Both the position numbers and the translations under genes were made by a program. DNA of 49,048 nucleotides from an uncultured Synechococcales cyanobacterium (GTDB lineage Bacteria > Cyanobacteriota > Cyanobacteriia > Thermosynechococcales > Thermosynechococcaceae). Numbering within the stretch: the first letter of the stretch is position 1; the number at the start of each line of letters is the position of its first letter. Location: contig CADCWO010000151.1 of NCBI GenBank assembly GCA_902806435.1, positions 1-49,048 on the forward strand, read 5' to 3'. Below are positions 3,457 through 19,185 of the stretch, in pieces. The notes beneath the pieces were generated by a model, which worked only from the letters and a program-made list of their open reading frames with translations, searched no databases and was not told the origin of the DNA.

Positions 3457-6342
3457 GTGACAGAACCAGGCACCTATAAAAATACTGTCAATTTGCCTCA
3501 AACCAAATTTGACATGCGGGCAAACGCGAAAGCGCGCGAACCAGAGTTACAGCAATTTTGGGCAGAATCTCAAATTTACGAGAAACAGGCACAGAATAAT
3601 CCTGGTGAGCCTTTTGTGCTGCACGATGGGCCGCCTTACGCCAATGGCGATCTGCACATTGGTCATGCCCTCAACAAAATTTTGAAGGATATCATCAACA
3701 AGTTTCAACTTCTCCAGGGACGGAAAGTTCGGTACGTTCCAGGTTGGGACTGTCATGGGCTACCGATTGAATTGAAGGTGCTGCAAAACATGCGGCCAGA
3801 GGAGCGCCAAAAGTTAACACCATTGAAGCTGCGTTGGAAGGCGCGTGACTTTGCACTTCATACGGTAGACAAGCAACGCAATGGTTTCAAACGCTATGGC
3901 ATCTGGGGGGACTGGGAGCGTCCCTACCTAACCATGAGCCCTGAGTATGAAGCGGCTCAAATCGAAGTTTTCGGCCAGATGGTTCTTAAGGGCTACATTT
4001 ACCGGGGGCTGAAGCCTGTTTACTGGAGCCCCAGTTCTCAAACGGCCTTAGCAGAGGCAGAACTGGAATATCCTGAGGGCCATACCTCGCGCAGTATCTA
4101 TGCTGCCTTTCCGATGGCTTCTGCCTCCCCGGCTAGTCAAGAGGTGCTGGCGCCGTACCTACCGCACTTGAAAGTGGCAGTTTGGACTACGACTCCCTGG
4201 ACAATTCCTGGAAACTTGGCGGTGAGCCTCAATCCTGATTTGACCTATGCTGTGGTTGAGTCGGGGGCTCAAATTGCTAGAACGAAGTACTTGCTAGTCG
4301 CAGCAGATCTAGTAGAGCGATTGTCAGCCGTTTTGGATACGTCACTAACGGTAAAAGCTACGCTGCCGGGTAAAGCGTTAGAGCATTCTACTTATCGTCA
4401 CCCGCTATTTGAGCGGGAGAGCCCAATCGTGATTGGCGGCGATTACGTCACTACAGAATCTGGTACAGGGCTGGTGCATACAGCGCCAGGGCACGGTCAA
4501 GAAGATTATCTGGTAGGCCAACGCTACGGGTTGCCCATCCTCACACCGGTGGATGGGGATGGCAACTTTACAGCAGGGGCGGGCGTTTTTGCCGGCTTAA
4601 ATGTGTTGGGTGAAGGAAATCAGGCCGTCATCACCGCCTTGGCGGAAGCTGGATCCTTACTTAAAGAAGAACCATACCAGCATAAATATCCCTACGACTG
4701 GCGAACCAAAAAACCTGTGATTTTAAGGGCAACGGAGCAGTGGTTTGCTTCCGTGGAAGGGTTCCGGGATGAAGCGCTCAAGGCGATCGCGACGGTAGAG
4801 TGGATTCCGGCTCAGGGCGAAAACCGGATCACAGCAATGGTGCAAGAGCGCTCCGATTGGTGTATCTCGCGCCAGCGTAGTTGGGGTGTGCCCATCCCCA
4901 CTTTCTACGACGAAGAAACTGGGGAAGCGCTGCTGAATGCAGAGACTATTGCCCACGTGCAAGCCATTATTGCAGCAAAAGGGTCTGATGCCTGGTGGGA
5001 GTTGCCTGTAGAAGACCTATTGCCAGAACAATACCGCAATAATGGCCGTACCTACCGCAAGGGTACAGACACGATGGATGTGTGGTTTGATTCAGGCTCT
5101 TCCTGGGCAGCCGTAGTAAAGCAGCGCCAGTTGCACTATCCCGCTCATCTGTACCTAGAAGGCTCAGACCAACACCGAGGTTGGTTTCAGTCCAGTTTAT
5201 TGACTAGTGTGGCAACCAATGACCGTGGCCCCTATCAAAAAGTTCTCACCCACGGCTTTGTGCTGGATGAGCAGGGTCACAAGATGAGCAAATCTCTGGG
5301 TAATGTGGTTGACCCTGCAATTGTGATTGAAGGTGGCAAGAACCAAAAAGCTGATCCCCCTTACGGAGCGGATGTACTGAGACTTTGGGTTTCTTCAGTA
5401 GATTATGCTTCTGATGTCCCTTTGGGGCAAAATATCCTGAAGCAGATGGCGGATGTCTATCGCAAGATTCGCAATACTGCTCGCTTTTTGCTGGGCAATC
5501 TGCACGACTTTGATCCTACTCAGGATGCAGTACCCTACGAGCAATTACCGCAGCTAGACCGCTATATGCTGCACCGGATCGGCGAAGTGTTTACGGAAGT
5601 GACAGCAGCTTTTGAAAGCTTCCAGTTTTTCCGCTTCTTTCAGACTGTCCAAAATTTCTGTGTGGTGGATCTGTCTAACTTTTACTTGGATATCGCTAAG
5701 GACCGGCTGTATATTAGTGCCCCGGCTGGCTTGCGCCGACGCAGTTGCCAAACTGTACTAGCGATCGCTCTGGAAAATTTAGCCCATGCGATCGCTCCTG
5801 TTTTGGCGCACATGGCAGAAGATATCTGGCAGTCTCTACCCTATTCCACACCCTACCAGTCAGTATTTGAAGCAGGTTGGGTGCAACTAGAACCCCAATG
5901 GCAAGTTCCAGAACTCGCTGAATTTTGGCAAAAAGTTCGGCAGATCCGAACTGAAGTCAATCGGGTGCTAGAAAAAGCGCGAGCTGAAAAGGCAGTGGGC
6001 TCTTCTCTCGAAGCGAAGGTATTACTTTACATCCCCCAACAATCGTTACGCCAGCAACTAAGGGCCTTTGCGCCTGAAATAGATGCTTCAACCAATGGAG
6101 TTGACGAGTTGCGTTACCTATTTTTAGCTTCGCAAGTCGAGCTGTTAGAGTCTTGCCAGCCGTTGTCGGGGTTGCAGTACAGCTTCCAATCCGAGGCGAT
6201 GGGCATTGGCGTGGTTGATGCCGATGGAAAAAAATGCGATCGCTGCTGGAACTACTCAGTTCAGGTTAGTGAAAACCAGGAACATCCCCTACTTTGCGAA
6301 CGCTGCGTTCCAGTCGTTGAAAAACTTTGCCATAACAGCTAA
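3457..6342 (+). CDS. ileS: isoleucyl-tRNA synthetase
   Basis: Charges tRNA-Ile with isoleucine in the cytosol, with editing of misactivated valine. It is a class I synthetase with the HIGH motif in GDLHIGHAL, the KMSKS loop in GHKMSKSLGNVVDP, the CP1 editing region between them, and a C-terminal zinc knuckle with cysteine pairs KKCDRCWNY and LLCERC. I take GTG 3457 as the start because the family begins about 10 residues before TVNLPQTKFDMRANA. An in-frame TTG at 3421 would add 12 residues unlike the family, and no strong ribosome binding site decides between them. Length is about 961 residues, normal for cyanobacteria. Confidence 0.96.
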   Translation: MTEPGTYKNTVNLPQTKFDMRANAKAREPELQQFWAESQIYEKQAQNNPGEPFVLHDGPPYANGDLHIGHALNKILKDIINKFQLLQGRKVRYVPGWDCHGLPIELKVLQNMRPEERQKLTPLKLRWKARDFALHTVDKQRNGFKRYGIWGDWERPYLTMSPEYEAAQIEVFGQMVLKGYIYRGLKPVYWSPSSQTALAEAELEYPEGHTSRSIYAAFPMASASPASQEVLAPYLPHLKVAVWTTTPWTIPGNLAVSLNPDLTYAVVESGAQIARTKYLLVAADLVERLSAVLDTSLTVKATLPGKALEHSTYRHPLFERESPIVIGGDYVTTESGTGLVHTAPGHGQEDYLVGQRYGLPILTPVDGDGNFTAGAGVFAGLNVLGEGNQAVITALAEAGSLLKEEPYQHKYPYDWRTKKPVILRATEQWFASVEGFRDEALKAIATVEWIPAQGENRITAMVQERSDWCISRQRSWGVPIPTFYDEETGEALLNAETIAHVQAIIAAKGSDAWWELPVEDLLPEQYRNNGRTYRKGTDTMDVWFDSGSSWAAVVKQRQLHYPAHLYLEGSDQHRGWFQSSLLTSVATNDRGPYQKVLTHGFVLDEQGHKMSKSLGNVVDPAIVIEGGKNQKADPPYGADVLRLWVSSVDYASDVPLGQNILKQMADVYRKIRNTARFLLGNLHDFDPTQDAVPYEQLPQLDRYMLHRIGEVFTEVTAAFESFQFFRFFQTVQNFCVVDLSNFYLDIAKDRLYISAPAGLRRRSCQTVLAIALENLAHAIAPVLAHMAEDIWQSLPYSTPYQSVFEAGWVQLEPQWQVPELAEFWQKVRQIRTEVNRVLEKARAEKAVGSSLEAKVLLYIPQQSLRQQLRAFAPEIDASTNGVDELRYLFLASQVELLESCQPLSGLQYSFQSEAMGIGVVDADGKKCDRCWNYSVQVSENQEHPLLCERCVPVVEKLCHNS

Positions 6343-6427
6343 GGCTCTAAGAAAGTATTCTTAATTTCTCTCCTGGACTGAGTCAGCGCTCAAGGCGCCT
6401 CAGCTGTTCGCCTTCTGTTAAAGATTA

Positions 6428-6456
6428 ACTACCGACTGGTAGTAGCCGAGATTTTT
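6428..6456 (+). terminator. possible terminator after ileS
   Basis: A 6-bp perfect hairpin, ACTACC (6428-6433) GACT GGTAGT (6438-6443), is followed by ATTTTT at 6451. It sits where ileS and the convergent cupin gene meet. The stem is short and a gap separates it from the T run, so the call is weak. Confidence 0.35.
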
Positions 6457-6919
6457 AGTTGAGGGAGACATCGCTCAGTCCAGCCCTTAGCGGCGCCTCG
6501 AGCTGTGCCAATGCTGTTTGAGCGGTTGTCAAGTTATAGGGCAAGGGTGGCTTTACCGGATGGTAGTCCCGTTCATCGGCTGGTCCATGGCGCAACACCG
6601 CATTCACCAACAAACAAGGCTCTGCACTCAGGTTAATTGCCCCGTGCAGCACGCAGCGAGGAATCTTGGCCACAGCAGGCTGGTATTCACTCAGGGGAAT
6701 GTATTGATAAGACCGATTTTGCAAGACCACCAACACAAAAGTACCCCTTACGACTAACAGTTGATCTGTTTGAAAGCGATGCACAAACAGTTCATCCACT
6801 GCTCCGGGTGGGATCTGCACCAATACAGTCTCGTGACTAGCTTGCGGTGTATAGAATTCAGCCATCCCTCCTTTAACCGAAGTAAGAGGACGGATCTCAA
6901 CTTTTCTCGCTAGACTCAT
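6455..6919 (-). CDS. cupin-fold protein, unknown substrate
   Basis: 154 residues from ATG 6919, preceded by GAGG about 9 nt upstream. An in-frame GTG at 6934 would add five residues. The sequence reads as a single small beta-barrel (cupin, RmlC-like). Segments such as HETVLVQIPPGAVDELFVH, then VVRGTFVLVVL and PRCVLHGAINLS, fit the strand-turn pattern of sugar-epimerase-like cupins. Metal ligands are not clearly conserved, so enzymatic activity is uncertain. The gene is convergent with ileS and stands alone. I recognise it as a fold, not as a defined function. Confidence 0.6.
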   Translation of the reverse strand: MSLARKVEIRPLTSVKGGMAEFYTPQASHETVLVQIPPGAVDELFVHRFQTDQLLVVRGTFVLVVLQNRSYQYIPLSEYQPAVAKIPRCVLHGAINLSAEPCLLVNAVLRHGPADERDYHPVKPPLPYNLTTAQTALAQLEAPLRAGLSDVSLN

Positions 6920-7156: not shown

Positions 7157-7936
7157 ATGTTGCCCAAAGAAGAATTACTAAAGGGGATCGACAACCTAGC
7201 TAGTGCAACGCGGGTACTAGATGGAGCTGACCGGGCACTTAAAACCTGGGAAGTTGTGTTGACAGACTTTTTACCTCCCCCAGAACTACTGGAAGTGCAG
7301 CAGGTGTTAAGCCAGCTCACAGAAATTCAACACCTAGCAAGCGGAGGTTATCCACAAGCAGAACGACAGCGAGTAGCGATCGCCCGTACGGAACTGCCGC
7401 TTACTTCTGAGCAAGTGGAAGTTACAGCTTTGGATATTGCCGGTAATTTTCTTTTTGACCCGGCAACTCACCGCGATTTTTTGGGTGCAGTGCTCGGCAC
7501 CGGCATTGTCCGGGAGAAGGTTGGAGACATCATCGTGCTGGGAGAGCGGGGTGCCCAAGTGATTGTTGTTCCAGAACTGGTGGAGTTCCTGGAGCTGAAC
7601 CTTATCCAAGTCCGCTCGGTCCCCGTTAAAACTCAACGGATTGACCTAAGCCAGCTCAAAGTCAGAGAACCGAAAAAGAAAGAGCTCACTACTGTAGAAG
7701 CTTCCCTCCGATTGGACGCGGTTGCCTCGGCTGGATTTGGGATGTCCCGCAGTAAAATGGCGGATTTAATCACCAGTGGGGATGTACGAGTTAACTGGAA
7801 AGAAATCACTCAAGCCAGTCATTCCTTGAAAGCGGGGGACCTAGTTGCCATTCGTGGCAAAGGCCGCCTGGAAATTGGCGAAATTATGGTTACAAAGAAG
7901 GACCGTTACCGGGTGCAACTCACTCGTCTAGTGTGA
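7157..7936 (+). CDS. photosystem II S4 domain (YlmH-like) RNA-binding protein
   Basis: 259 residues. It matches the cyanobacterial and plant family annotated as photosystem II S4 domain protein, related to firmicute YlmH. The N-terminal ~165 residues form the family-specific part. The S4 RNA-binding module follows at about 175-240, recognisable from LRLDAVASAGFGMSRSKMADLI and the SGDVRVNW turn typical of S4 folds. It probably binds ribosomal RNA or tRNA; YlmH relatives act in rescue of stalled ribosomes. The link to photosystem II rests on the family name only. It is the last gene before tRNA-Val and the accessory island. Confidence 0.85.
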   Translation: MLPKEELLKGIDNLASATRVLDGADRALKTWEVVLTDFLPPPELLEVQQVLSQLTEIQHLASGGYPQAERQRVAIARTELPLTSEQVEVTALDIAGNFLFDPATHRDFLGAVLGTGIVREKVGDIIVLGERGAQVIVVPELVEFLELNLIQVRSVPVKTQRIDLSQLKVREPKKKELTTVEASLRLDAVASAGFGMSRSKMADLITSGDVRVNWKEITQASHSLKAGDLVAIRGKGRLEIGEIMVTKKDRYRVQLTRLV

Positions 7937-8010
7937 GGCTTGACAATTTGGTCATAAGAGTGCTGCTGACGCAAGTTTTGCGAGTAGTCAAACGATCAGA
8001 TCTTTAACAA

Positions 8011-8040
8011 TTGCAAGCCAGGCTAGACCTGTGTTACTGT
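8011..8040 (+). promoter_or_regulatory. likely promoter of tRNA-Val
   Basis: TTGCAA (8011-8016), an 18-bp spacer and TACTGT (8035-8040) place transcription start a few bases before the mature tRNA 5' end at 8053. Found by eye only. Confidence 0.5.
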
Positions 8041-8052
8041 AGATTACTGTTC

Positions 8053-8126
8053 GGACGCATAGCTCAGTTGGTTAGAGCACCACGTTGACATCGTGGGGGT
8101 CACTGGTTCGAGTCCAGTTGTGTCCA
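8053..8126 (+). tRNA. tRNA-Val (anticodon GAC)
   Basis: A complete cloverleaf of 74 nt. The acceptor stem pairs GGACGCA with TGTGTCC with discriminator A at 8126. The D arm is GCTC/GAGC. The anticodon stem is CCACG/CGTGG with loop TTGACAT, giving anticodon GAC at 8087-8089. The T arm is ACTGG/CCAGT around TTCGAGT. CCA is not encoded. Its 3' part is repeated at 16994-17052, and its 3' end faces the mycosporine island, as expected for an integration target. Confidence 0.97.
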
Positions 8127-8159
8127 TTCCTGTTGCACTGTGACTAATTATTTGTCGCT
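8101..8159 (+). repeat. direct repeat, left copy (attL-like)
   Basis: The T arm, the 3' acceptor strand and 33 bases of downstream flank of tRNA-Val. It matches 16994-17052 at 57 of 59 positions, with differences at 8136 and 8145. The first 35 bases (8101-8135) are identical. Confidence 0.85.
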
Positions 8160-8199
8160 GATGACAGGATTAATCTCATCGATCAAAAAACAGTATCAT

Positions 8200-9417
8200 C
8201 TAAGCCGATTGAGGTTCAAGGTTTGCCGCTTGACCCTTTAGGGAAAGGTTTATTGTTAATTCCTCAGTACTCGGCCAAGTTGCTCGAAAGGTTGGGGAAA
8301 CTGCTAGTGTATGGAGTCTATGGTACCAACCATAAGGCATGAGCTTTTCTGGCTCAGTAGAGACTTGCAGCAGGTTAGTTCCATACATTCCCGTTTTTTC
8401 ACTCCCTGCCACAATCGATTCATTATGACAGGCAGGCTGAAATGGGCCCGTAATTGTGTCGGAAACATACCAATACAGGGACGAGGTCGTAATTCGTTTG
8501 GAATTAACCTTCTGTAACCATCTAGGATTTAGAAACATCCGGAAGCAGGAAAAGAACAGATGATACTTGTCATCTTTGAAGATCACTTGCGGTCGTTCCG
8601 TGTGGTAGTACGGCCAGTCTGCTGCGCTATCTGTGGAGGTGGAGAGCACCGGGGGAAGTAGCTGGTAGGGCCCAGCAATTTTGTCTGCGACTGCTAGGCC
8701 AACACATCCTTGAAAGTTACCAGGAGTCTTAGAACTGGCACAGGTAAACATATAATAACGATCTGTTTTCGGATCGCTGAAGATGTAGGGATCACGCCAG
8801 TGAAAATGTCCAGTCCAGTTAGATCGTCCGTACCAGAGGTTATTCTCTGGTGGCTGCACTAAGTAGTGGTTAGAGTAACGCTGCCAGTGTAAACCGTCTG
8901 ATGAGGTTGCCAGCGCGATCGCTTCATTTTTGAGGTCTAGTCCTTGGCCACTCGCCGGATAAAACAGGTAGTAAAGGCCATTTTCTTTATAGGTACAGCC
9001 TGCCAGAATTCTGCCAGATTCCCAGGGATTGCCGGGGTCAGCCTCAAGAACGGTCCCCAAATCCTGCCATTGTCGTAGGTCGGTAGAAACAGCACCGCAA
9101 ATTCTACTGACGGTCCACCAAGGGGTTTGTCCTTCTAGCCCACGTAAATAAAAGAGACGGTAAACATTTTCATCTTTCAAAATCCAAGGGTCCCAATTCA
9201 TGGGTTCCCTGCGGCGTAGCGATCGCAAAATTGCGGTAACCGACTTACCGAGGCGAACTTGACTTCGCTCTAAGACGCTAGCCGTTGTTAACTCCGACAG
9301 GTCTGTGGGAATAGGTTCAAGCTGGCTGATGATTCGTTGTTGTAGGGGATGAAGGTTCATCCAATCATTAGAACTTTTGCTATTTGGATTTTTAGAGCGA
9401 ACAACTAAGATGTCCAC
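8200..9417 (-). CDS. beta-propeller glycoside hydrolase-like protein A (GH43/GH32/GH68 type)
   Basis: 405 residues. The motifs fit a five-bladed beta-propeller glycosidase or transglycosidase of the GH32/43/62/68 group. NWDPW carries a nucleophile-type Asp (D76), HWRDPYIF the transition-state Asp (D209), and TERPQVIF the acid/base Glu (E274). All three catalytic residues are present. There is no signal peptide, so it should act in the cytosol. About 70 residues precede the first propeller motif. Its start overlaps the end of the upstream paralogue by 13 bp, which suggests translational coupling. It is the last gene of the minus-strand mycosporine cluster. Substrate unknown; hydrolysis or sugar transfer to a mycosporine are both possible, and the second is my inference. 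Confidence 0.7.
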   Translation of the reverse strand: MDILVVRSKNPNSKSSNDWMNLHPLQQRIISQLEPIPTDLSELTTASVLERSQVRLGKSVTAILRSLRRREPMNWDPWILKDENVYRLFYLRGLEGQTPWWTVSRICGAVSTDLRQWQDLGTVLEADPGNPWESGRILAGCTYKENGLYYLFYPASGQGLDLKNEAIALATSSDGLHWQRYSNHYLVQPPENNLWYGRSNWTGHFHWRDPYIFSDPKTDRYYMFTCASSKTPGNFQGCVGLAVADKIAGPYQLLPPVLSTSTDSAADWPYYHTERPQVIFKDDKYHLFFSCFRMFLNPRWLQKVNSKRITTSSLYWYVSDTITGPFQPACHNESIVAGSEKTGMYGTNLLQVSTEPEKLMPYGWYHRLHTLAVSPTFRATWPSTEELTINLSLKGQAANLEPQSA

Positions 9418-10433
9418 GCTGCAAGTGGCTTAGACTGAGACAAGCGAATCCTGCCATTAAAGAAAATTGCCCACTGCGGATCTGATATGCCGCCGACAAA
9501 GTGTCCCCCTTCATCTTCAAGCTGAAAGCCAAAGAACACTGGGGCATCGTCCTCCAGGTTCACAAGCCTTCCCCCATAGAGACCGTGACTTAGCAGGTTA
9601 GCTGGCTCATCCTCCCAAGGAATGCAGTCGTAACTGACCTGTTTTGGGTCTTTTATGGGACGTGAGCGAACGTAATAGGTACCTTTAGGTTCTCGGCGCT
9701 CGAAGAATCTATTCCAGTAAGGACTAAATAGGAGGTATAGGCGCCAGCACTCAGGCAGCTTTCGCCAAAAAACTTGGGGAACCTCCAAATAATGAAATTC
9801 TGGAGATTGGTACAAAATTTGACAAGGCTTGGTCTGCCAATTCTCTAAGTCTACGGAGTTCGCATAAGCTACAACACCACCCGTATCGGTTGGCACGTCA
9901 ATGGGGCAGGCAGTGATGAAAGCATAGAATTGCTGATCTTTATTGTCTTTAATCACATAGGGATCACGCCAACTAACGCCATCAAATCCACTACTGAGTC
10001 CAGGATTCGGAATCACAGGGTTTTCTCTTGATGCGGTTGTCCGCTGCCAAGTGATCAGATCGGAGGATTCAGCAACGCCTATATTTTGCGGTTGCCGTCG
10101 CTCATGAGCCGTGAGCACGAGTGGGTCTTCAGAGCATCGGGCCGTGTAAAACATGTAGTAGCGGCCCTCCTTTTCGATGATGCTGCCGGTCCAAATTGAA
10201 AGATTGTCCCAGTAGCTTCCCTGTCGTGCCGCCAAAGCAGGTAGGCCGGGCGAGATTTCCTGCCAGCCAAAATCGGTGAGAATAGCATGACCAACTGAGG
10301 AGAGATTATGGCGTCGCTCGGCGTTATAGGCACAAGCCAGTCGGGCCGCCTGCAGGTAGAAAATGTGCAGGGTTTGTGCTTGATAGACAAACCAGAAGTC
10401 CCAGCAATACTTGTTCAGAGGCTGCCAAGGCAT
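9405..10433 (-). CDS. beta-propeller glycoside hydrolase-like protein B (GH43/GH32/GH68 type)
   Basis: 342 residues of the same superfamily as its neighbour A but clearly divergent from it. The catalytic set is WDFW (D12), SWRDPYVI (D157) and LEVPQVFW (E217). The propeller begins almost at residue 1 and there is no export signal. WDNLSIWTGSIIEKEGRYY and the terminal GGISDPQWAIF segment are typical of a bacterial group annotated as GH32 or GH43-like. The C-terminal ~70 residues closely resemble the relic at 11676-11915, so at least three members once sat here. It follows the second methyltransferase gene by 72 bp. The biochemical role cannot be read from the sequence. Confidence 0.7.
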   Translation of the reverse strand: MPWQPLNKYCWDFWFVYQAQTLHIFYLQAARLACAYNAERRHNLSSVGHAILTDFGWQEISPGLPALAARQGSYWDNLSIWTGSIIEKEGRYYMFYTARCSEDPLVLTAHERRQPQNIGVAESSDLITWQRTTASRENPVIPNPGLSSGFDGVSWRDPYVIKDNKDQQFYAFITACPIDVPTDTGGVVAYANSVDLENWQTKPCQILYQSPEFHYLEVPQVFWRKLPECWRLYLLFSPYWNRFFERREPKGTYYVRSRPIKDPKQVSYDCIPWEDEPANLLSHGLYGGRLVNLEDDAPVFFGFQLEDEGGHFVGGISDPQWAIFFNGRIRLSQSKPLAAWTS

Positions 10434-10505
10434 AGTTTTTAGTTATAGCGATCGCTATGAGTGACCCGTTAAAAGAAGATTGAGCGGTCAAGTTTCCCCG
10501 TAGCC

Positions 10506-11558
10506 TTAGGGCGCTAAACCAAATTCCATTGCCGAGAGGTTAGTTCCCGTGTGAACGACCTTTTCGAGTCGAAACCCACTCTTCTCAAACAGCTCCTTAA
10601 ATTGTTGTTTTGTCCGCCAGGCGCCCCCCGGAACTGCCACCATGATCTGCACGGCAAAAAGCCCGGGTAAGATGCCATCTGCACTCTCTGGTGGCTCGCC
10701 TAAATCCGGCACAAAAGCCTGCAGAAGAATTATTTTTCCGTGCTCTGGCAGAGCTTTCTTACAATTACTCAATATCTTCATCGCATCTTCGTCATTCCAG
10801 GCGGAGATGAAGTACTTCATGACGATCGCATCAGCACCCTGAGGCACGGACTCAAAAACATCCCCAGAAATAATTTCTACCGCTTGCTCCACTCCTTGCT
10901 TTGCCAAAAAGGCAGGGGCTGTCTCCGTCACGTAAGGGACGTCAAACAATATTCCCTTACCCCCCGACTTCTGGACAATCCTAGAAATTAGTCCTCCCTG
11001 GCCCCCGCCAACATCCATGACTGTATCAAAGCGGCTGAAGTCATAGATATCCAGCAGGGCATCTACACTGTGATCCGTTAAGAAGCTCATGGCATTGATA
11101 AACACATCGCCACTCCAGGAGTTGTCCCGCGTAAACTCATAGACCGTTTTGCCGTTCGCCCGCTCAAACGGCACTTCGCCAGTCTTTAAACAGGCTTCAA
11201 GCTGGTTCCAAGCATCCCACTGAGAAGGTTCTGTAATGTGCATCGCAAAATGTCCCATGGAGGGTCCAGCGTTAGTGACTAAGAGGGCGGACAGCTCAGT
11301 GGAACCAAAAATCCGCCCTGGCTTCTCAACCAACACGTCCAGGTGAGCGAGCGCTCGCAGAATGACATAGAGCTTTTCTACTTGGGTAGAGGTGGTTGCG
11401 GCTAGACTCTCGACACTCTGGGGCCCCGATTGGAGTAGGTTGGGAATCCCTAAACGGGTTGCCACATAGAGGCATTGGCTCTCCCAGAAAGCCTGGATCA
11501 TGCCAAAAACCTTTCGCTTAGATTCCATCGGTGCTGTATCAGAAAATGTTGTTTGCAT
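10506..11558 (-). CDS. O-methyltransferase-fold protein, plant-type, catalytic His replaced
   Basis: 350 residues. An N-terminal dimerisation and winged-helix region (about 15-95) is followed by a class I SAM-binding Rossmann domain with DVGGGQGGL (182-190) and acidic motif FDVP. This is the architecture of caffeate/hydroxyneurosporene-type O-methyltransferases. The usual LHDWxDE catalytic loop reads ISAWNDEDAMKIL here, with Ser252 where the catalytic His normally lies. It may use another base, or do non-methyl chemistry as some SAM-binding relatives such as RdmB do. It sits downstream of mysC and is not part of the canonical mysABC set. A role in tailoring the mycosporine is inferred from position only. 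Confidence 0.8.
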   Translation of the reverse strand: MQTTFSDTAPMESKRKVFGMIQAFWESQCLYVATRLGIPNLLQSGPQSVESLAATTSTQVEKLYVILRALAHLDVLVEKPGRIFGSTELSALLVTNAGPSMGHFAMHITEPSQWDAWNQLEACLKTGEVPFERANGKTVYEFTRDNSWSGDVFINAMSFLTDHSVDALLDIYDFSRFDTVMDVGGGQGGLISRIVQKSGGKGILFDVPYVTETAPAFLAKQGVEQAVEIISGDVFESVPQGADAIVMKYFISAWNDEDAMKILSNCKKALPEHGKIILLQAFVPDLGEPPESADGILPGLFAVQIMVAVPGGAWRTKQQFKELFEKSGFRLEKVVHTGTNLSAMEFGLAP

Positions 11559-11675
11559 CGGGTTATTCTGGGTGGGTTGTTTGGTGTCAGATATCAGATA
11601 GAAGAAGATATTGATACTTCTTTGGGTGTAGTGAAGTCAGTCTTACTTCAATCAGGGGACTTTCAACGTGGGTAA

Positions 11676-11915
11676 TTAAATGGCGGTTTTAACAGAGGCA
11701 GGCAATGACTGAGGTTGAGATAAGTGAATCGTGCTGTTATCAGCGAAAGTTGCCAATCGTGGATCTGTTAACCCACCGACAGATTCTAGGTTTCGTCTTC
11801 ATTCTGGAATGTAAAAAAATACAGGATTAGAAGCATCTGGCTCAATAAAATTCCCTGTAGGTAAACTCATTGCAAGAACAGCCGCGGATTCCGATTCCTG
11901 AAGAATGTCTGCGAG
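11676..11915 (-). pseudogene. relic of a third glycoside hydrolase-like gene (C-terminus only)
   Basis: The spacer between mysC and the second methyltransferase encodes, on the minus strand, fragments in two frames that align to the last ~70 residues of protein B. One frame gives SNPVFF and FQNEDET; after a frameshift the other gives VGGLTDPRLATF and IHLSQPQSLPAS, ending at TAA 11676-11678. The counterparts in B are APVFFGFQLEDEG, VGGISDPQWAIF and IRLSQSKPLAAW. The N-terminal four fifths are missing. It is a dead copy of the same family, presumably left by duplication and deletion. Confidence 0.75.
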
Positions 11916-11928
11916 CTTGAATCAATTG

Positions 11929-13284
11929 CTAGTCCCCTCCCGACTCCACTAGTTTGCCGATGTTGAAATCAATCCTCACCCACCCTCTAAGTTTCCGCAG
12001 ATTGTCAAGCAGCAGCAAGGGAATGTGCCAGTGGTGCACCATAAGGAATGGCAGGGGATCACGGACATCAAAAATTGCCTCTTTCCCACGCAAAACGTTT
12101 TTGACCCAGGTCTGTAATTGCTTCCAGGATCTAATTTCGTTAAGCCGCCAAACTTCGTGGTAGAGCCAGTAGGTTGGCCTGCTATCGGGAAGCGGCTGCA
12201 TCGGTTCAACTAAAGGCTGTTGAGCGAGATAGGCAGCCGCTACCCCGGGGTGGTTGTAAAACATCGTTATAGCCGAATGAGTGCGGGGGTTACATTCGAT
12301 CGCGTAAACTGCACCGTCCTCTGCCTGGATGAAGTCAAAGGAAGCCTGCCCGGTTCCCAGTTCTTTGACAAAACGACTGACCCACTGCTCAATCTCCGGC
12401 TGATCAACGTTTTCGTAGTTGACCTGGAAAGCCGACGACTCACAGCAGCAGTGCAGCCTTAACTCGCCGTCTCTCACGGTGCTGTGAGTGCAGTATTCTT
12501 TTCCGGGGATGAATTCCTGCATGATCCAAGGCTTTTCCTGACTGATCGGTAGGCTCTTGACAAATGCCGCCGTTGCTTCAGGCGTCTCGCAGGGTAGCTT
12601 GGTTAGATTCAAGCGCCTTATAGAGTCGTAGGCAATGCTTTTGAGAATGTACTTGCGAGTCTCGTTGTCAAAGTTGAAGCTTAGGACTTGTTCAGGGTCG
12701 GTAATTCTAAAGGATTTAGGGACAGATAACGACAGCGATCGCGCTTTCTCGCTGAAGGCGAACTTGTCATCGAGCATTTTCGTGATCTCTGCATCAAAGT
12801 GGAACACTTCGCAACAGCTTGACAACACTGGCTTGGCTAGGGAGTCATAGTAGCTAGAGACAGGACTACAGATAGGGATATAAATGTCAATATTTTCTGC
12901 TTTGGCAATGTTTAGTAGGGCTTGAATGTAGCTGTCAGGGTCTTTCTCAGGTGCCGGTACGGTATAGAAGCGCTCCACAGCATTAGAAAACCGGTGGCCG
13001 GATAGCCAATACTTCTGGGTTTCTACTAAAAATACCTTGTGTCCAGCTGCATGCAAGGAGCGGGCGAGCTGGAGTGCCTTGGTCATCTTGCCACCCGTAA
13101 GCAGGATATTTCTGGGCGTCTCGGCCTCAGCCAGTTGCTGTCGGGAGCCTCGGAACCGGTTCCACAGCAGAGAGGCCAGAACAAGACTAAGGTTCAGGGG
13201 AAAGGCGATCGCAAGCAGCGCCAGAGTACCGAGGTTTTGCACCACGGCAAAAACAGATGCCTTTATCCGTTGTGTGTGCGCCAT
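11929..13284 (-). CDS. mysC: mycosporine-glycine synthetase, ATP-grasp
   Basis: 451 residues, the family length. In characterised cyanobacterial clusters MysC (Ava_3856 type) couples glycine to 4-deoxygadusol with ATP to give mycosporine-glycine. A hydrophobic N-terminal segment (about 11-41) precedes the pre-ATP-grasp fold (ILLTGGKMTKALQLARSLH) and the ATP-grasp domain. WIMQEFIPGKEYCTHS is in the central sheet, and the metal and phosphate residues sit in QASFDFIQ and AIECNPRTHSAITMF. The C-terminal ~90 residues (YWLYHEVWRLNE and onward) are family-specific. A 91-bp gap separates it from mysB, and it is on the same strand. Confidence 0.93.
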   Translation of the reverse strand: MAHTQRIKASVFAVVQNLGTLALLAIAFPLNLSLVLASLLWNRFRGSRQQLAEAETPRNILLTGGKMTKALQLARSLHAAGHKVFLVETQKYWLSGHRFSNAVERFYTVPAPEKDPDSYIQALLNIAKAENIDIYIPICSPVSSYYDSLAKPVLSSCCEVFHFDAEITKMLDDKFAFSEKARSLSLSVPKSFRITDPEQVLSFNFDNETRKYILKSIAYDSIRRLNLTKLPCETPEATAAFVKSLPISQEKPWIMQEFIPGKEYCTHSTVRDGELRLHCCCESSAFQVNYENVDQPEIEQWVSRFVKELGTGQASFDFIQAEDGAVYAIECNPRTHSAITMFYNHPGVAAAYLAQQPLVEPMQPLPDSRPTYWLYHEVWRLNEIRSWKQLQTWVKNVLRGKEAIFDVRDPLPFLMVHHWHIPLLLLDNLRKLRGWVRIDFNIGKLVESGGD

Positions 13285-13318
13285 TCGTTTTTTAAAGTTC
13301 AGAAGGTCAAGTCGTGCC

Positions 13319-13371
13319 GAGGATTAAGGACTAAGCGTCCGGGCAAGGTGCGCTTCATCCCTAATCCCTCA
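13319..13371 (-). promoter_or_regulatory. imperfect inverted repeat between mysB and mysC
   Basis: GAGGATTAAGGAC (13319-13331) faces ATCCCTAATCCCTC (13358-13371) across a GC-rich loop. It could fold in the mRNA between mysB and mysC and affect stability or translation of mysC. The complementarity is imperfect. Confidence 0.35.
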
Positions 13372-13375
13372 GCAC

Positions 13376-14203
13376 TTACAGCCGCCGGATCACGGTCAAG
13401 CCATCTCGCACAGGCAGTAGCACTTGCTCAACCCGGCTGTCATTAGTAACCACACGATTGAACTCAGCGATCGCCTGTCCGTTGGGCGATCGCTCGTCCT
13501 CCGGCAGATAAGGCTGTCCTTGAAGTAGCGTGTTATCCACACAGATAAACCCGTGGGGATTTAGCAAGTCAGAGTCCAGGAGGTTCCGGAAATACTGCAC
13601 GTACTCCTTTTTATCAGCATCGATAAACACGAAGTCGAAGGACACCTGAGCCGCCACCAGTTTGTCCAGGGTTTCCAGCGCTGGACCGACTTCCACCCGG
13701 ATTTTTTCACCATGAGAAGACTGCTGGAACAAAGCTTGGGCGAAGTTAGCCACGTACTGATCGACCTCACAGGCTACTAAGTGTCCGTCCATTGGCAGCG
13801 CCTCTGCCATTGCTAAGGCAGAGTACCCGGTGAACATGCCGATATCCAGTACGCTACGGGCACGGGTCATGTGGACAAACATCTTGAGTGTCTGCCCCTC
13901 AACGTGCCCGGACAACATCTCTTGTTCCAACTCTCGCCCGGTAGCACCTTCCGAGAATCGCTGGTCCCAGGATTCCTCAGCCGTTTTTTGGGCGATCGCG
14001 CTTAGGATTGGAGACTCAGCGGAGGTACATTTATCCAGGTAAGGCTCTAAGCCTGCGGCCAGACGCAGCGCCTTTTGCAGTGCTTCTAAGCCAGCAGTCA
14101 TACCCGGTTCCTGCTCCACCCTCTGAACGGCGGTTTTGAGATGGTCAACCAGGATACCCAACGGTGTTACCGGACGAGAGCCCACACTTGCAGCCCTAGA
14201 CAT
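13376..14203 (-). CDS. mysB: O-methyltransferase making 4-deoxygadusol
   Basis: 275 residues. MysB (Ava_3857 type) methylates the cyclised product of MysA with SAM to give 4-deoxygadusol, the common core of mycosporines. It is a metal-dependent class I methyltransferase of the CCoAOMT type. SAM motif I is [19 protein letters not shown], the metal-binding region is [15 protein letters not shown], and a later Asp-Asn pair lies in CVDNTLLQG. Its ATG overlaps the mysA stop by 8 nt, so the two are probably translationally coupled. Confidence 0.94.
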
Positions 14204-15440
14204 TGGCGATACCTTCGATCAAATTTTGCTGCTGATAACTCCCCACATAAGCATCCACACCGGCACCTGCACGTGGGTACTGGGCACAAGCGTGTTTGTG
14301 TTCAGCCAAAGCGGCATCGAGTTCTTCCCGAGTCAAATCGTTCACGAAGAAGCATTTGCCAATCGGCCTTGGCATTGCTGCCCGCTGTAACCCATCTCGC
14401 GTCAGGGTGATGGACTGGGTCGCAGACCACAACAGGTCGATGTCGAGCAGAGGATGATCCAAGGCTAAGCCCAGTTGGCTCATCAGTCCTAGGATACGAT
14501 CGCGCTCCTCAACTGTGATATAACCTCGTTTCTCGGCGATCGTTGCTGACAGTGCCATATCGATGTTGACCGCATGCCCATGCAGCAGTGGTACGGATGG
14601 AGCTAGTTCCAGCGTAGGGCTCCAGGTATGACCGTAGGCAATCACACGGTCTAGATCCAGCTCGTGCAAATTAGGAGTCTCCAGTGCCAGCATCGTCTTG
14701 ATTGACTCGTAATTTATTCGGTGAGCAACTTCTTTTAGCAGTGGAGTGCCACCGTCGAAACCAAAGTGCGTTGTCAGTAAATCTGCCCCGTACTCACACA
14801 ACAGTTCGAACACTTCGACATTGGAGACGACTGCAATTTTCACCAGTTCTGCCATGCCATTACGAACTTCGGGCGTGGGAAGTGTCCGTAAAAACGAGAA
14901 GTCAAGCATCACCTTCTTTGGCGCGTGGTAGGCACCTAAGCGATTTTTGAGCTTTCCGTGGTTGACTGCTACCTTAATTGCAATGCCAGCATCAACCAAA
15001 CTGATTAGGGTTGTGGGAATGCGGATGTAGTTCGTGCTCCGGCGATAAGCAGCACAAGCAAAACCTGCGACATCCGTTACTAATCCGCCACCCACAATTA
15101 AAACTGGTTCTTTGCGAACCAAGCCGAAGTCTGCGAAAGCATCTACGATTGACTGAAATGTATCTAAGTTCTTTGTCGGCTCGCTAATAGTGACAGGAAA
15201 GAGGTTGAGATCAATGTTGTAGTACTTGAAGTATTCACAGATCTGGGACCCGTAAAGCCGGTTCACGTTGGCATCGACAACAGCAAGGCAGCGCCCAAAG
15301 TTCCTGTAGCTGTCTGCAAGCTCTCTGTTCTTGGTATCGAAAGCCCCGTTTACAAAGACGAGGCTAAAGTCAATCTTCTCGTAACCTTCTACATGGAAGG
15401 CAGTTTCGGTTGCTTCAAATTTTGCTTGGACGGTACTCAT
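14196..15440 (-). CDS. mysA: desmethyl-4-deoxygadusol synthase (sugar-phosphate cyclase)
   Basis: 414 residues. It belongs to the 3-dehydroquinate synthase superfamily and cyclises sedoheptulose 7-phosphate, the first step to mycosporines. Visible motifs are the NAD-binding [14 protein letters not shown], the AYHAPKKV and [11 protein letters not shown] active-site segments, and metal ligands in the Glu of [14 protein letters not shown] and LHGHAV. The [12 protein letters not shown] form fits the DDGS branch better than 2-epi-5-epi-valiolone synthase. I choose ATG 15440 because AAGGAAAGAAG lies directly upstream and the length then fits the family. An upstream in-frame ATG (15482) adds 14 atypical residues. 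First gene of the cluster. Confidence 0.93.
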
Positions 15441-15465
15441 TCTTCTTTCCTTTGCATAGTACAAG

Positions 15466-15523
15466 TTGCGGCAATGGTTCACAGACCTCAGCTTTTACGC
15501 AATGAGCCATTTCGTTGCCGCAA
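15466..15523 (-). promoter_or_regulatory. inverted repeat in the mysA leader
   Basis: A perfect 9-bp inverted repeat, TTGCGGCAA (15466-15474) and TTGCCGCAA (15515-15523), encloses 40 nt. A nested ATGG/CCAT pair lies inside. It starts about 25 nt upstream of the mysA ATG and just above its ribosome binding site, so it may form a leader stem or an operator. Confidence 0.5.
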
Positions 15524-15710
15524 ATCGTGAACAGACAAAGACGGTGAGCCTGATAGATTTTTCAAACGAAAAATACGCAACCAGCCCAAAAATCCCCTTA
15601 ACTTGAGCCATTGAAGCCAACCCCAATAAACTATCCGTAGAATAAGGGCCTACTCAGTTGCCCCGCTTGTGTCTAAAGTAGTAGAAAAGTAAAGAATTAT
15701 AAATATTTAT
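15524..15710. other. non-coding leader/upstream region of mysA
   Basis: No gene. It contains a perfect hairpin ATTTTTC-AAAC-GAAAAAT (15557-15574) and a very AT-rich tract at about 15685-15725, as expected near a promoter. No clear -35/-10 pair stands out on the minus strand. Confidence 0.4.
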
Positions 15711-15990
15711 TTATTTTCTCATCAATTTAGCAAAGTAGATAGGTTGATTTTCTGGTAGGAACGCTGAAACTTGCTTACCCTCAGGCTCTGGAAGCCATCT
15801 AATGTACCCCAGACTGGCAGCTCTACACCATCCATTTGGAGTTTTCGTCGATGTGAACTAATGAGCAGTATTTCGGACTGGGCTGGGTGTTGTTATTCGC
15901 CTTGAAGGTCCTGGCCAAGCAAGTCGGCAACGGCTTGCTAGATACTCCAGTCGTGGGCTATCAAGCAAGGACTTAGGCCCAGCAATTGTA
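15711..15990 (-). pseudogene. decayed coding remnant, family not recognised
   Basis: On the minus strand, protein-like segments appear in different frames separated by stops. HDWSI and QAVADLLGQDLQGE are upstream; YIRWLPEPEGKQVSAFLPEN then leads to a terminal FAKLMRK and TAA at 15711-15713. The residue patterns look like former coding sequence, but I cannot name the family. This may be noise, so the confidence is low. Confidence 0.25.
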
Positions 15991-16065
15991 AGTCTGAGTT
16001 TGTTTCCAAGATTTACAAAGCTCTAAAAGGCTTGTTGTGACCGTCCTGTAGCTGGTGGGATATGA

Positions 16066-16795
16066 TCAGTGTTGCCCCTCTAGATCTTCCCGGACAACCC
16101 TCTCAATCTCCAGAATATAATCTGCTCCATAGGCTAAAGAGGGAGTAAAGAGGAAGTTTGAAAACCAGTACGAATTTATCCGGCAAGCACCTTTTTCATT
16201 GCCGCCAGAGCCGTTAATGCTGTCAAAGTATACTCTTCAGAGCACTTTATCCGAGACACAAATCGCTTGCTGGAGTGATCATCTACCTTTCCCCATAGCT
16301 GAGTTATCCTCTGCGATCGCGCTACGCGTCAGTGGGGCCAGGAGGTTGAGATTGGATGAAGCGCTTCTGCAAGTGTTGTAGGCCTAGCAAGCAGGGCTCG
16401 GTACATCGACTGAGGAACCGCAGCATAAACCTCAATGTCGGGAATCCCAGTGCTGTAGAAAGTGGTAGACACATCTCCTCAGGGAATTATCGTAGCTAAG
16501 ACTGGACCTTGACCAAAGTCGATGCTCCGGCTCTTCCAGGCTGCTGAAGCCGGAGTGAGAGCTCCGTCTCGGCGGACCAAACCTCCATGAGCCTAGTTAT
16601 CTACCATCGTCGTTGCAGTACCACGGGACAACTGGTTCTCAAGTAAATCAATCCCCAGCGCCAGCTGGGTCGCTGGCGGCAATCGTGCTTTGAGATGGGT
16701 AGTTAAACACTCAGAAGGGACGACATCAAAGATTGCCCAAAGTATCCCAAGACTTGTGATTTGAGCTTCAGGCTGGTCGGCCTGCAGAAGAAGTC
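16066..16795 (-). pseudogene. saccharopine dehydrogenase-family NADP-binding protein, pseudogene
   Basis: One minus-strand frame retains strong family similarity through several in-frame stops. FDVVPSECLTTHLKARLP, SRGTATTMVDN, stop, GGLVRRDGALTP, IDFGQGPVLATIIP, stop, GDVSTTFYSTGIPDIEVYAA, then a degraded part with further stops, YTLTALTALAAMKKVLAG, and after a frameshift YGADYILEIE before the TGA at 16066-16068. These match the C-terminal half to two thirds of the family annotated as saccharopine dehydrogenase NADP-binding or trans-acting enoyl reductase. The N-terminal Rossmann part is absent, cut off near the right-hand tRNA repeat. No function remains. Confidence 0.85.
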
Positions 16796-16960
16796 GTGGA
16801 AAATGTGCTTAGCGCTTACTAAGCAGAGTAATAAAGTCACTCAAAGAAATTAGCGCTTCCAGATAGCTTTGGTAATCAACTTCTCATATACAGAGTTGTG
16901 CCTATTAATCTAGTTCAAGAGAAGTGATAACACCTTCCATCGTTTTCCAACGGGCGTTAT

Positions 16961-17019
16961 GAGCACTGTACGTCCAGGTTGACAGCATGGGGCCACTGGT
17001 TCGAGTCCAGTTGTGTCCA
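16961..17019 (+). pseudogene. degenerate 3' fragment of tRNA-Val
   Basis: GAGCAC (16961-16966) and GTTGACA (16978-16984) correspond to the D-stem 3' strand and anticodon loop of tRNA-Val but are spaced by an insertion. From 16994 to 17019 the T arm and acceptor 3' strand are identical to the intact gene. The 5' acceptor strand and D loop are missing, so no functional tRNA can form. Confidence 0.85.
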
Positions 17020-17052
17020 TTCCTGTTGTACTGTGACCAATTATTTGTCGCT
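16994..17052 (+). repeat. direct repeat, right copy (attR-like)
   Basis: Matches 8101-8159 at 57 of 59 bases, including 33 bases beyond the tRNA 3' end. It lies immediately before the core mnmG promoter region. Confidence 0.85.
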
Positions 17053-17142
17053 ATCCCTCTTTTGTCATTCTCGAAAGGTCGGAATTCAGCATGCTTGCTA
17101 TATAAGGGTTGTAAGCTTTAAACTTTTCTATCACTTTTGGAC

Positions 17143-17170
17143 TTGACGAATGAGTATGAAGCATTACTGT
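17143..17170 (+). promoter_or_regulatory. possible mnmG promoter
   Basis: TTGACG (17143-17148), a 16-bp spacer and TACTGT (17165-17170) lie about 120 bp before the mnmG start and outside the island repeat. Found by eye. Confidence 0.4.
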
Positions 17171-17286
17171 ATAAGCATCTTAGCTAGTTTACTTTTCCCA
17201 ATCTGACAGAAGAGGGATAATGGGCAAAACTCGCTTAACCGCTAAGATCAAACATGAGTCCTTGCTGCTTAGGTTCAAGCGTGACC

Positions 17287-19185
17287 ATGTCAACCGTAGA
17301 ATTTTTAGATGCCTTTGATGTGATTGTCGTTGGCGCTGGGCACTCAGGCTGTGAGGCTGCTCTGGCATCAGCGCGCCTAGGCTGCCGTACTTTGCTACTG
17401 ACGCTCAACCTGGACAAAATTGCTTGGCAACCTTGTAATCCAGCGGTCGGGGGCCCAGCCAAGTCGCAATTGACCCATGAAGTCGATGCTTTGGGCGGTG
17501 AAATTGGCAAGGTGGCCGATCGCACCTACTTGCAGAAGCGGCTACTAAATAACTCCAGGGGGCCAGCGGTTTGGGCACTACGAGCGCAGACAGACAAACG
17601 GGAATACGCGGCGATCATGAAGGGGATCGTGGAGACGCAAGAGAATCTTAGCTTACGCGAGGCTATGGTCACTGATTTAGTCTTAGGCGCAAACGATGAG
17701 GTGATTGGAGTTGAAACTTATTTCGGCGTGGCTTTCGCCTGTAAAGCCTTAATTTTAACTACCGGCACTTTTTTGGGGGGACGGATTTGGGTTGGCTCTA
17801 AGTCTATGCCTGCTGGACGCGCTGGTGAGTTTGCCGCCGAAGGGTTAACCGAAACCCTCAACCGCCTCGGTTTTGAAACTGGACGTTTAAAGACGGGCAC
17901 CCCAGCCCGAGTGGATAAGCGGTCTGTGGATTATAGCCAGTTGGAACCTCAGCCCCCTGATCAGCAAGTGCGCTGGTTTAGTTTTGACCCAGAAGCTTGG
18001 GTAGAACGGGAACAGATGAATTGCTATTTGACGCGCACTACCCCTGCAACCCATGCCTTAATCCGGGAAAACTTACACCTTTCCCCAGTCTATGGTGGCT
18101 GGGTGGACGCCAAAGGTCCCCGCTACTGCCCCAGTATTGAAGATAAAATTGTTCGCTTTGCCGATAAAGAAAGCCACCAGATCTTCATTGAGCCAGAGGG
18201 CCGGGATAGTCCAGAACTATACATCCAAGGATTTTCTACTGGATTGCCGGAAACATTGCAGTTGCAGATGCTGCGATCGCTCCCTGGTTTAGAGAGCTGT
18301 GCCATGCTGCGGCCCGCCTACGCCGTAGAGTACGACTACCTGCCAGCCACCCAGTGTTATCCCACCTTGATGACCAAGCGAATTGCCGGGCTATTTTGTG
18401 CTGGCCAGATCAATGGCACCACCGGCTATGAAGAAGCGGCAGCTCAAGGAATTGTCGCCGGGATCAATGCGGCTCGCTACGCCCGCAACCAGGAGATGGT
18501 GATCTTCTCCCGCGAGCAAAGTTACCTCGGCACCTTAATCGATGACCTGTGTACCAAAGATCTGCGGGAGCCTTACCGGATGCTCACCAGCCGCTCGGAG
18601 TACCGCTTGCTGCTGCGCTCTGACAATGCGGATCAGCGACTAACGCCTTTGGGCCGAGAGGTAGGGCTGATTGGCGATCGCCGCTGGCAGCTATTTACTC
18701 AGAAACAAGCCAATATTGCTGCAGAAAAAGAACGGCTGCACACAAGACGGCTCAAAGAGCACGATCCGATTGGGCAAACGGTGATGGCTGAAACTCAGCA
18801 AGCGATCAAAGGCTCAATTACCTTAGCCGATCTACTGCGGCGACCTGGCCTGCACTATCCAGACCTGGATCGCTACGGCTTGGGCGATTCCACTTTGAAT
18901 CCAGCGGAAAAAGAAGGGGCAGAAATTGATATCAAGTACTCCGGCTATATCCAGCGGCAGCAGCACCAGATTGACCAGATTCTGCGGCAGGAGCACCGGA
19001 AGCTATCGCCGGATGTCAACTACGCTAGTATTGACACCCTATCCCTGGAAGCCCGGGAAAAACTGACTAAGGTCAAACCCTTAACTATTGGGCAAGCCAG
19101 CCGAATTGGGGGCGTGAATCCTGCCGACATTAATGCTCTACTGGTTTACCTGGAAATCACTGCCCGGCTAGAGCTGGTCAGATGA
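17287..19185 (+). CDS. mnmG: tRNA uridine-5-carboxymethylaminomethyl synthesis enzyme MnmG (GidA)
   Basis: About 632 residues. With MnmE it installs the cmnm5 group at the wobble uridine of certain tRNAs, using FAD and methylene-tetrahydrofolate. The N-terminal FAD-binding [21 protein letters not shown] is followed by [40 protein letters not shown] and the [20 protein letters not shown] segment. The C-terminal helical MnmE-binding part is present. ATG 17287 places the start about nine residues before the FAD motif, as in relatives. An in-frame ATG at 17254 would add 11 residues, and neither has a clear ribosome binding site. It borders the right end of the island. Confidence 0.95.

Follow-up and report, generated by a model that had tools for sequence, protein, structure and literature searches.

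The 49,048-nucleotide contig CADCWO010000151.1 of an uncultured Synechococcales cyanobacterium of the family Thermosynechococcaceae (assembly GCA_902806435.1), analyzed over its full length and referred to as the window, carries a six-gene mycosporine-type cassette between an intact tRNA-Val(GAC) gene and a second copy of the 3' part of the same gene. Both tRNA tails run into what appears to be the decayed left end of a type V-K CRISPR-associated transposon (CAST). We read the interval 8127-17052 as a fossil island located at a tRNA that is a hotspot of integration. With a probability of roughly two in three, the cassette was acquired horizontally as a unit, a CAST homed to the same tRNA and the mobility genes were lost.

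Clusters for mycosporine-like amino acids (MAAs) are patchily distributed across cyanobacteria, and the literature, as far as it could be searched, gives no account of how they move between cyanobacteria. Here, two related genomes carry one cassette, each behind a different tRNA gene; integrases and CRISPR-associated transposons both use these sites, and a transposon end has stayed in place. These findings offer a concrete, testable way in which UV protection could spread, and they illustrate how natural CAST attachment (att) sites can serve as accretion points for metabolic genes.

The repeated tRNA-Val tail

The only tRNA gene identified in the window by ARAGORN was tRNA-Val(GAC) (8053-8126, plus strand), which is intact and lacks an encoded CCA. 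An earlier note on this DNA had claimed that 8101-8159 recurs at 16994-17052 with two mismatches. This was found to be exact, and both mismatches fall in the flank and not in the tRNA part. The ungapped repeat covers 64 nt with 95% identity (8096-8159 and 16989-17052). A search of the whole 4.79-Mb genome returned the second tail copy at 16974-17052 with 91% identity over 80 bases (E 4.7e-25), and no third comparable copy of the tail was found.

The tRNA part of copy 2 (16974-17019, plus strand) comprises tRNA positions 28-74. Similarity begins where the anticodon stem starts (position 28); the first stretch, the anticodon arm, is degenerate, and the T arm and acceptor strand are identical to those of the intact gene. 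Of the degenerate traces that the earlier note had seen before copy 2, those of the anticodon arm stood, scoring 34 where shuffled sequences reached 20 at most. Farther upstream, a D-arm-like GTTAtGAGCAC was no better than chance (P 0.19), and a surviving 5' tRNA half before copy 2 was rejected as not significant.

A transposon left end behind both tRNA copies

The tRNA end is followed in both copies by TTCC-TGTTG(C/T)ACTGTGAC(T/C)AATTATTTGTCGCT. The first four of these 33 flanking bases are TTCC and the other 29 match a V-K CAST left end, so that the repeat is not the simple integrase att duplication with a plain flank that had been proposed. In copy 1 the putative left end TGTTGCACTG (8131-8195, plus strand) has an exact TnsB-like site at 8141-8156, a degenerate second site at 8162-8177 and possibly a third at about 8180-8195. 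The fragment in copy 2, TGTTGTACTGTGACCAATTATTTGTCGCT (17024-17052, plus strand), has a TnsB-like site at 17034-17049. The 4.79-Mb genome contains exactly three occurrences of the motif TGACNAATTATTTGTCGC (window positions 8141 and 17034, and 16061 of contig C213), all of them 14 nt past a tRNA or a fragment of one. No exact match was found in 38 relatives, and the reversed control gave none in the window genome.

For comparison we used Cas12k-carrying elements collected from the class. Most of those with a recognisable adjacent tRNA have such TnsB-site arrays directly behind it. V-K left ends are known to lie behind tRNAs, pointing at the element, and the anchor spacer has been described as well (PMC9938897). 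All seven elements of the first set with a clear tRNA carried an anchor spacer, a reverse-oriented tRNA match of 14-18 nt located 127-402 nt inside the element and adjoining a GT-type protospacer-adjacent motif. Four living V-K CASTs were found at tRNA-Val(GAC) itself, all in other genomes. Counted from the tRNA end, the first TnsB site starts at +15 or +16 in three of the four, and at +15 in both window copies; two of the four carry the anchor AGAGCACCACGTTGACA, which equals tRNA positions 22-38. One of the living left ends, that of L241, agrees with copy 1 in 26 of 34 positions. Because of the shared TnsB-site spacing and this match, the flank is, judged by its sequence, a V-K-type CAST left end that has decayed in both places. 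The assignment is made from the ends, and other Tn7-like elements with similar ends could still conceivably account for it.

The window thus shares with V-K CASTs a left-end TnsB-site array a few nucleotides behind a tRNA 3' end, at a tRNA that is an att site of living elements too. It differs from them in that the left end is doubled together with a tRNA fragment, and in lacking Cas12k, tnsB/tnsC/tniQ, CRISPR, anchor spacer and right end. Cas12k had no match in the whole window genome, and the open reading frames (ORFs) of CAST loci, used as queries for tnsB, tnsC and tniQ, had no tblastn match to 8001-17260. The segment 8161-16960 shares no 11-mer with tRNA-Val, a test that was positive in all seven control elements, and neither a right end nor a 5-bp target-site duplication was found at the island. 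The absence of an integrase reported earlier was borne out, as neither similarity to integrases nor a remnant was found within the island; remnants of integrase or CAST genes were rejected as candidates. Since integrase, Cas12k, tns genes, guide and right end are all absent, the island is fixed and immobile now, in agreement with the earlier reading as probably fixed.

Contig C213 of the window genome carries a better preserved V-K-type left end directly behind tRNA-Asp(GTC) (15973-16116; L106:1973-2116). It has three intact TnsB repeats (TGACTAATTATTTGTC, TGACAGATTAATGTC and TGACAAATTAATGTC) and is followed by an invertase-like gene. No anchor spacer was found behind this tRNA by the test that was positive in 7/7 intact elements.

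A conserved cassette behind two different tRNA genes

The six cassette genes are all encoded on the minus strand, in the order mysA-mysB-mysC-OMT-GHb-GHa. The first three are a mysA-like sugar-phosphate cyclase of the DHQ-synthase superfamily (14196-15482; Pfam, NCBIfam; best PDB match 5tpr, E 8e-203), a mysB-like O-methyltransferase (13376-14203; Pfam Methyltransf_3) and a mysC-like ATP-grasp ligase (11929-13284; NF005315, 543 bits against a cut-off of 406). Encoded together, MysA, MysB and MysC constitute a predicted mysABC mycosporine-type cluster, sharing gene order and homology with cyanobacterial clusters of this type. The window adds to these a further O-methyltransferase (OMT) and two glycoside hydrolase (GH) genes of the GH32/43/68-like kind, and differs also in sitting behind a tRNA. 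The added O-methyltransferase (10506-11558; Pfam Methyltransf_2 and dimerisation domain) adjoins mysC in several loci. The GH32-like gene GH_b (9405-10433; Pfam) has a structural model of low confidence, with Foldseek matches to GH32 and related propellers, and GH_a (8200-9417; GH43/GH68/GH32-like by Pfam, with similarity to levansucrase in PDB) is conserved beside mys genes. No mysD or mysE was recognised within the island. The combination that 8200-11558 encodes beside mysABC, a pair of GH32/43/68-like genes with an additional O-methyltransferase, was also seen in loci L096, L101, L102, L103 and L213. Enzymes that glycosylate MAAs have been stated to be unknown (PMC10510106), and these additional genes are candidates for MAA sugar chemistry.

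The same six-gene order was found in the closest relative, a Thermosynechococcaceae metagenome-assembled genome (MAG) termed G003 (GH_b 94% and MysA 83% identical), in a Chroococcidiopsidaceae MAG, in Microcoleus FACHB-1515, in a Leptolyngbyaceae MAG and in the class member G055. Therefore, the six genes form a genuine cassette. A mysC above the family cut-off was present in 62 of 390 class genomes and, within the window's own family, only in the window genome (G000) and as a frameshifted copy in G003. The description of the interval as accessory and its surroundings as core accordingly holds, the MAA genes being absent from nearly all family relatives.

In G003 the cassette lies directly behind tRNA-Pro(CGG), with the GH_a end towards the tRNA 3' end and in the same orientation as in the window; the stop codon of GH_a falls within the tRNA. 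The pair glgB-tRNA-Pro(CGG) is conserved and, in the window genome, free of the cassette, with a second tRNA-Pro and a nadE-like gene next to it. In G006 an integrase occupies this site. Both MAA loci of the window's family (2/2) are thus located directly behind a tRNA. Among 40 other MAA loci, each read over 15-20 kb, none had a believable tRNA or a TnsB motif; a single ARAGORN call was discounted as it lay inside mysC. In a tree of MysABC, from which other relatives of the host family are missing as they lack the genes, the window and G003 grouped with Chroococcidiopsidaceae and G180 with 100% bootstrap. The patchy distribution, the G003 copy behind tRNA-Pro, the lack of tRNAs at the 40 other loci and the tree led us to conclude that the cassette was probably acquired and placed at a tRNA. 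The earlier proposal of acquisition as a unit at a tRNA is therefore supported, by this distribution, by the second tRNA location and by the recurrent use of tRNA-Val(GAC) described below. A plasmid copy of the cluster was rejected, the only find being a mysC homologue on a Nostoc plasmid (72%).

The cassette might also have been cargo of the V-K CAST itself, inserted by RNA guidance behind tRNA-Val, with Cas12k, guide, tns genes and right end later deleted and copy 2 left as a cointegrate remnant or a second insertion. We regard this as possible, if on balance unlikely. The left end lies within about 70 bp of the cassette, oriented as in living elements, V-K elements use both tRNA-Val(GAC) and tRNA-Pro(CGG), and these elements, being without TnsA, form cointegrates (PMC11406308). 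On the other hand, no right end, CRISPR, anchor spacer or tns/cas remnant was found in the island, the G003 cassette has no adjacent left end, and the TnsB motif occurred at none of the 40 other MAA loci. An MAA cluster inside a living CAST was sought and rejected, as comparison by eye of the 390 genomes revealed no close pair of mysC and Cas12k on a contig. The wider proposal that Cas12k-guided transposition into tRNA genes delivered the sunscreen pathway between cyanobacteria, the window being a CAST reduced to a left end and domesticated cargo and the cassette moving between tRNA sites, seems to us somewhat more doubtful still.

tRNA-Val(GAC) is a reused integration site

Fragments of tRNA-Val(GAC) starting at tRNA positions 23-31 were found in seven other genomes (G002, G006, G008, G009, G017, G031 and G034), and the window fragment, starting at position 28, begins in the same place. 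In the five cases where intact tRNA and fragment share a contig, the fragment lies downstream in direct orientation at a distance of 1.1 to 49 kb. In G002, G006 and G034 tRNA-Val is followed, 120-145 bp on, by the start of a homologous tyrosine integrase gene, and the tRNA-Val sites of relatives hold other cargo and fragments. tRNA-Val(GAC) is thus a recurrent, reused integration site.

Like tRNA-integrating islands that carry a tyrosine integrase, the island is bounded by an intact tRNA on one side and, on the other, by a direct repeat of that gene's 3' part, and it shares with those of G002, G006 and G034 the 5' boundary of the fragment in the anticodon arm. It differs in being integrase-less and in having a repeat that continues into a transposon end. 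Such an island could have brought the cassette into tRNA-Val, the fragment being its attR, while a CAST landed behind the tail or tails independently, before or after. The start at position 28 against 23-31 in the integrase-type fragments of the seven genomes, and the integrases behind tRNA-Val in three of them, point in this direction. Against it, neither an integrase nor a remnant was found in the window, and the anchor of two living V-K elements at tRNA-Val (positions 22-38) is incomplete in the fragment, which makes a guided hit there less likely. We hold this course of events to be rather improbable.

A plain local duplication of the tRNA tail and left end, independent of the arrival of the mys genes, was considered as well. 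There is a precedent for doubling of the tRNA tail together with its flank in G008, where the tRNA-Val fragment and about 370 nt of coiled-coil-like coding flank are duplicated 1.8 kb away, behind the intact tRNA (contig C21; L067:4512-6766). However, the cassette would then be flanked by the copies by chance, and its location behind a tRNA in G003 as well, compared to 0/40 other loci, speaks against this. We find this explanation the least convincing.

A proposed history of the island

In the favoured reading the mysA-mysB-mysC-OMT-GHb-GHa cassette would have arrived horizontally as one unit and come to rest behind the 3' end of tRNA-Val(GAC), GH_a end first. The same tRNA would have been the homing target of a type V-K CAST or of a closely related Tn7-like element. 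Copy 2 (tRNA positions 28-74 and left end) would mark the far junction and most likely stems from tandem or circular (Campbell-like) integration at the tRNA-tail/left-end sequence, in which case the arriving DNA supplied its left part and the resident locus its right part. All mobility genes would have been lost later, leaving the island fixed. We infer the direction of transfer, the order of these events and the involvement of a recombinase.

Three routes may have led to the doubled tail: tandem or circular integration, the remnant of a V-K cointegrate, or an attR left by an integrase, with the CAST hits as separate events. The first is favoured because it explains both the degenerate anticodon arm and the near-identical tail of copy 2. 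The confidences given to the routes overlap, since they are variants of one history.

Several observations weigh against this history. Base composition gives no sign of foreign origin and was rejected as such, the GC content being 0.494 inside the island and 0.495 and 0.508 outside. Of the composition comparisons suggested in the earlier note, only codon usage revealed a difference, a mild one that lends the history mild support (P 0.0055 for the island genes versus random six-gene sets of the window). The neighbourhood S4/tRNA-Val/mnmG was kept whole in none of the genomes searched, all from outside the window's genus, and in none of them was it found without the cassette. The empty site that the earlier note had sought is hence missing at this locus, and only the reciprocal one at tRNA-Pro in the window genome was found. 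The failure to detect a right end, target-site duplication, anchor spacer or mobility gene at the island points the same way. Finally, the MAG of G003 has a completeness of 74% and contains frameshifts, and neither the repeat nor the left end accompanies its cassette. Its far junction, where mysA lies beside an M50 gene, is possibly a scaffold misjoin, because the M50-lplA order that the window genome shares with eight relatives is broken there.

Neighbouring genes and other features

The interval is flanked by PS_II_S4 and ileS on the left and by mnmG and truB on the right. The left neighbour PS_II_S4 (Sll1252 family; 7157-7936, plus strand; TIGR03069, 352 bits) is probably native, since PS_II_S4 (5964-6755) followed by tRNA-Val(GAC) (6806-6877) was also observed in G023, a small distant genome (L094:5964-6877). 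This suggests that the two are an old gene pair. The right neighbour mnmG is located at 17254-19185 (plus strand; TIGR00136, 902 bits).

The region upstream of mysA (15483-15745, minus strand) has weak DNA similarity to the corresponding region of G003. Within it, 15504-15686 (minus strand) shares 51% identity over 61 translated residues with the region upstream of mysA in L101, and may be a leader, a promoter region or a fragment of an older gene. ORF and Pfam searches found no long ORF and no Pfam match in the following 1.2 kb or so (15746-16973), which is probably decayed sequence. By eye, a decayed saccharopine-dehydrogenase-like gene was suspected at 15746-16960; it had no Pfam support and was rejected.

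Related tyrosine integrases were observed directly behind different tRNAs (Val, Cys, Thr and Pro) in this cyanobacterial group. Those adjacent to tRNAs are located in L080 (6976-8100), L076 (10247-11413), L074 (13935-15119), L084 (about 6577), L090 (about 5189) and L193 (5060-6352), and the open frame of the last begins inside tRNA-Pro. In G009 a truncated integrase of 145 amino acids lies about 0.6 kb past the tRNA-Val fragment and outside the 45-kb interval (contig C1; L069:3867-4301), which suggests stacked islands. The tRNA-Val fragment of G017 (contig C15; L077:9771-9819) has an inverted anticodon loop: CCACG-ATGTCAA-CGTGG is exactly the reverse complement of CCACG-TTGACAT-CGTGG, and it looks as though the 7-base loop had acted as a recombination overlap and flipped.

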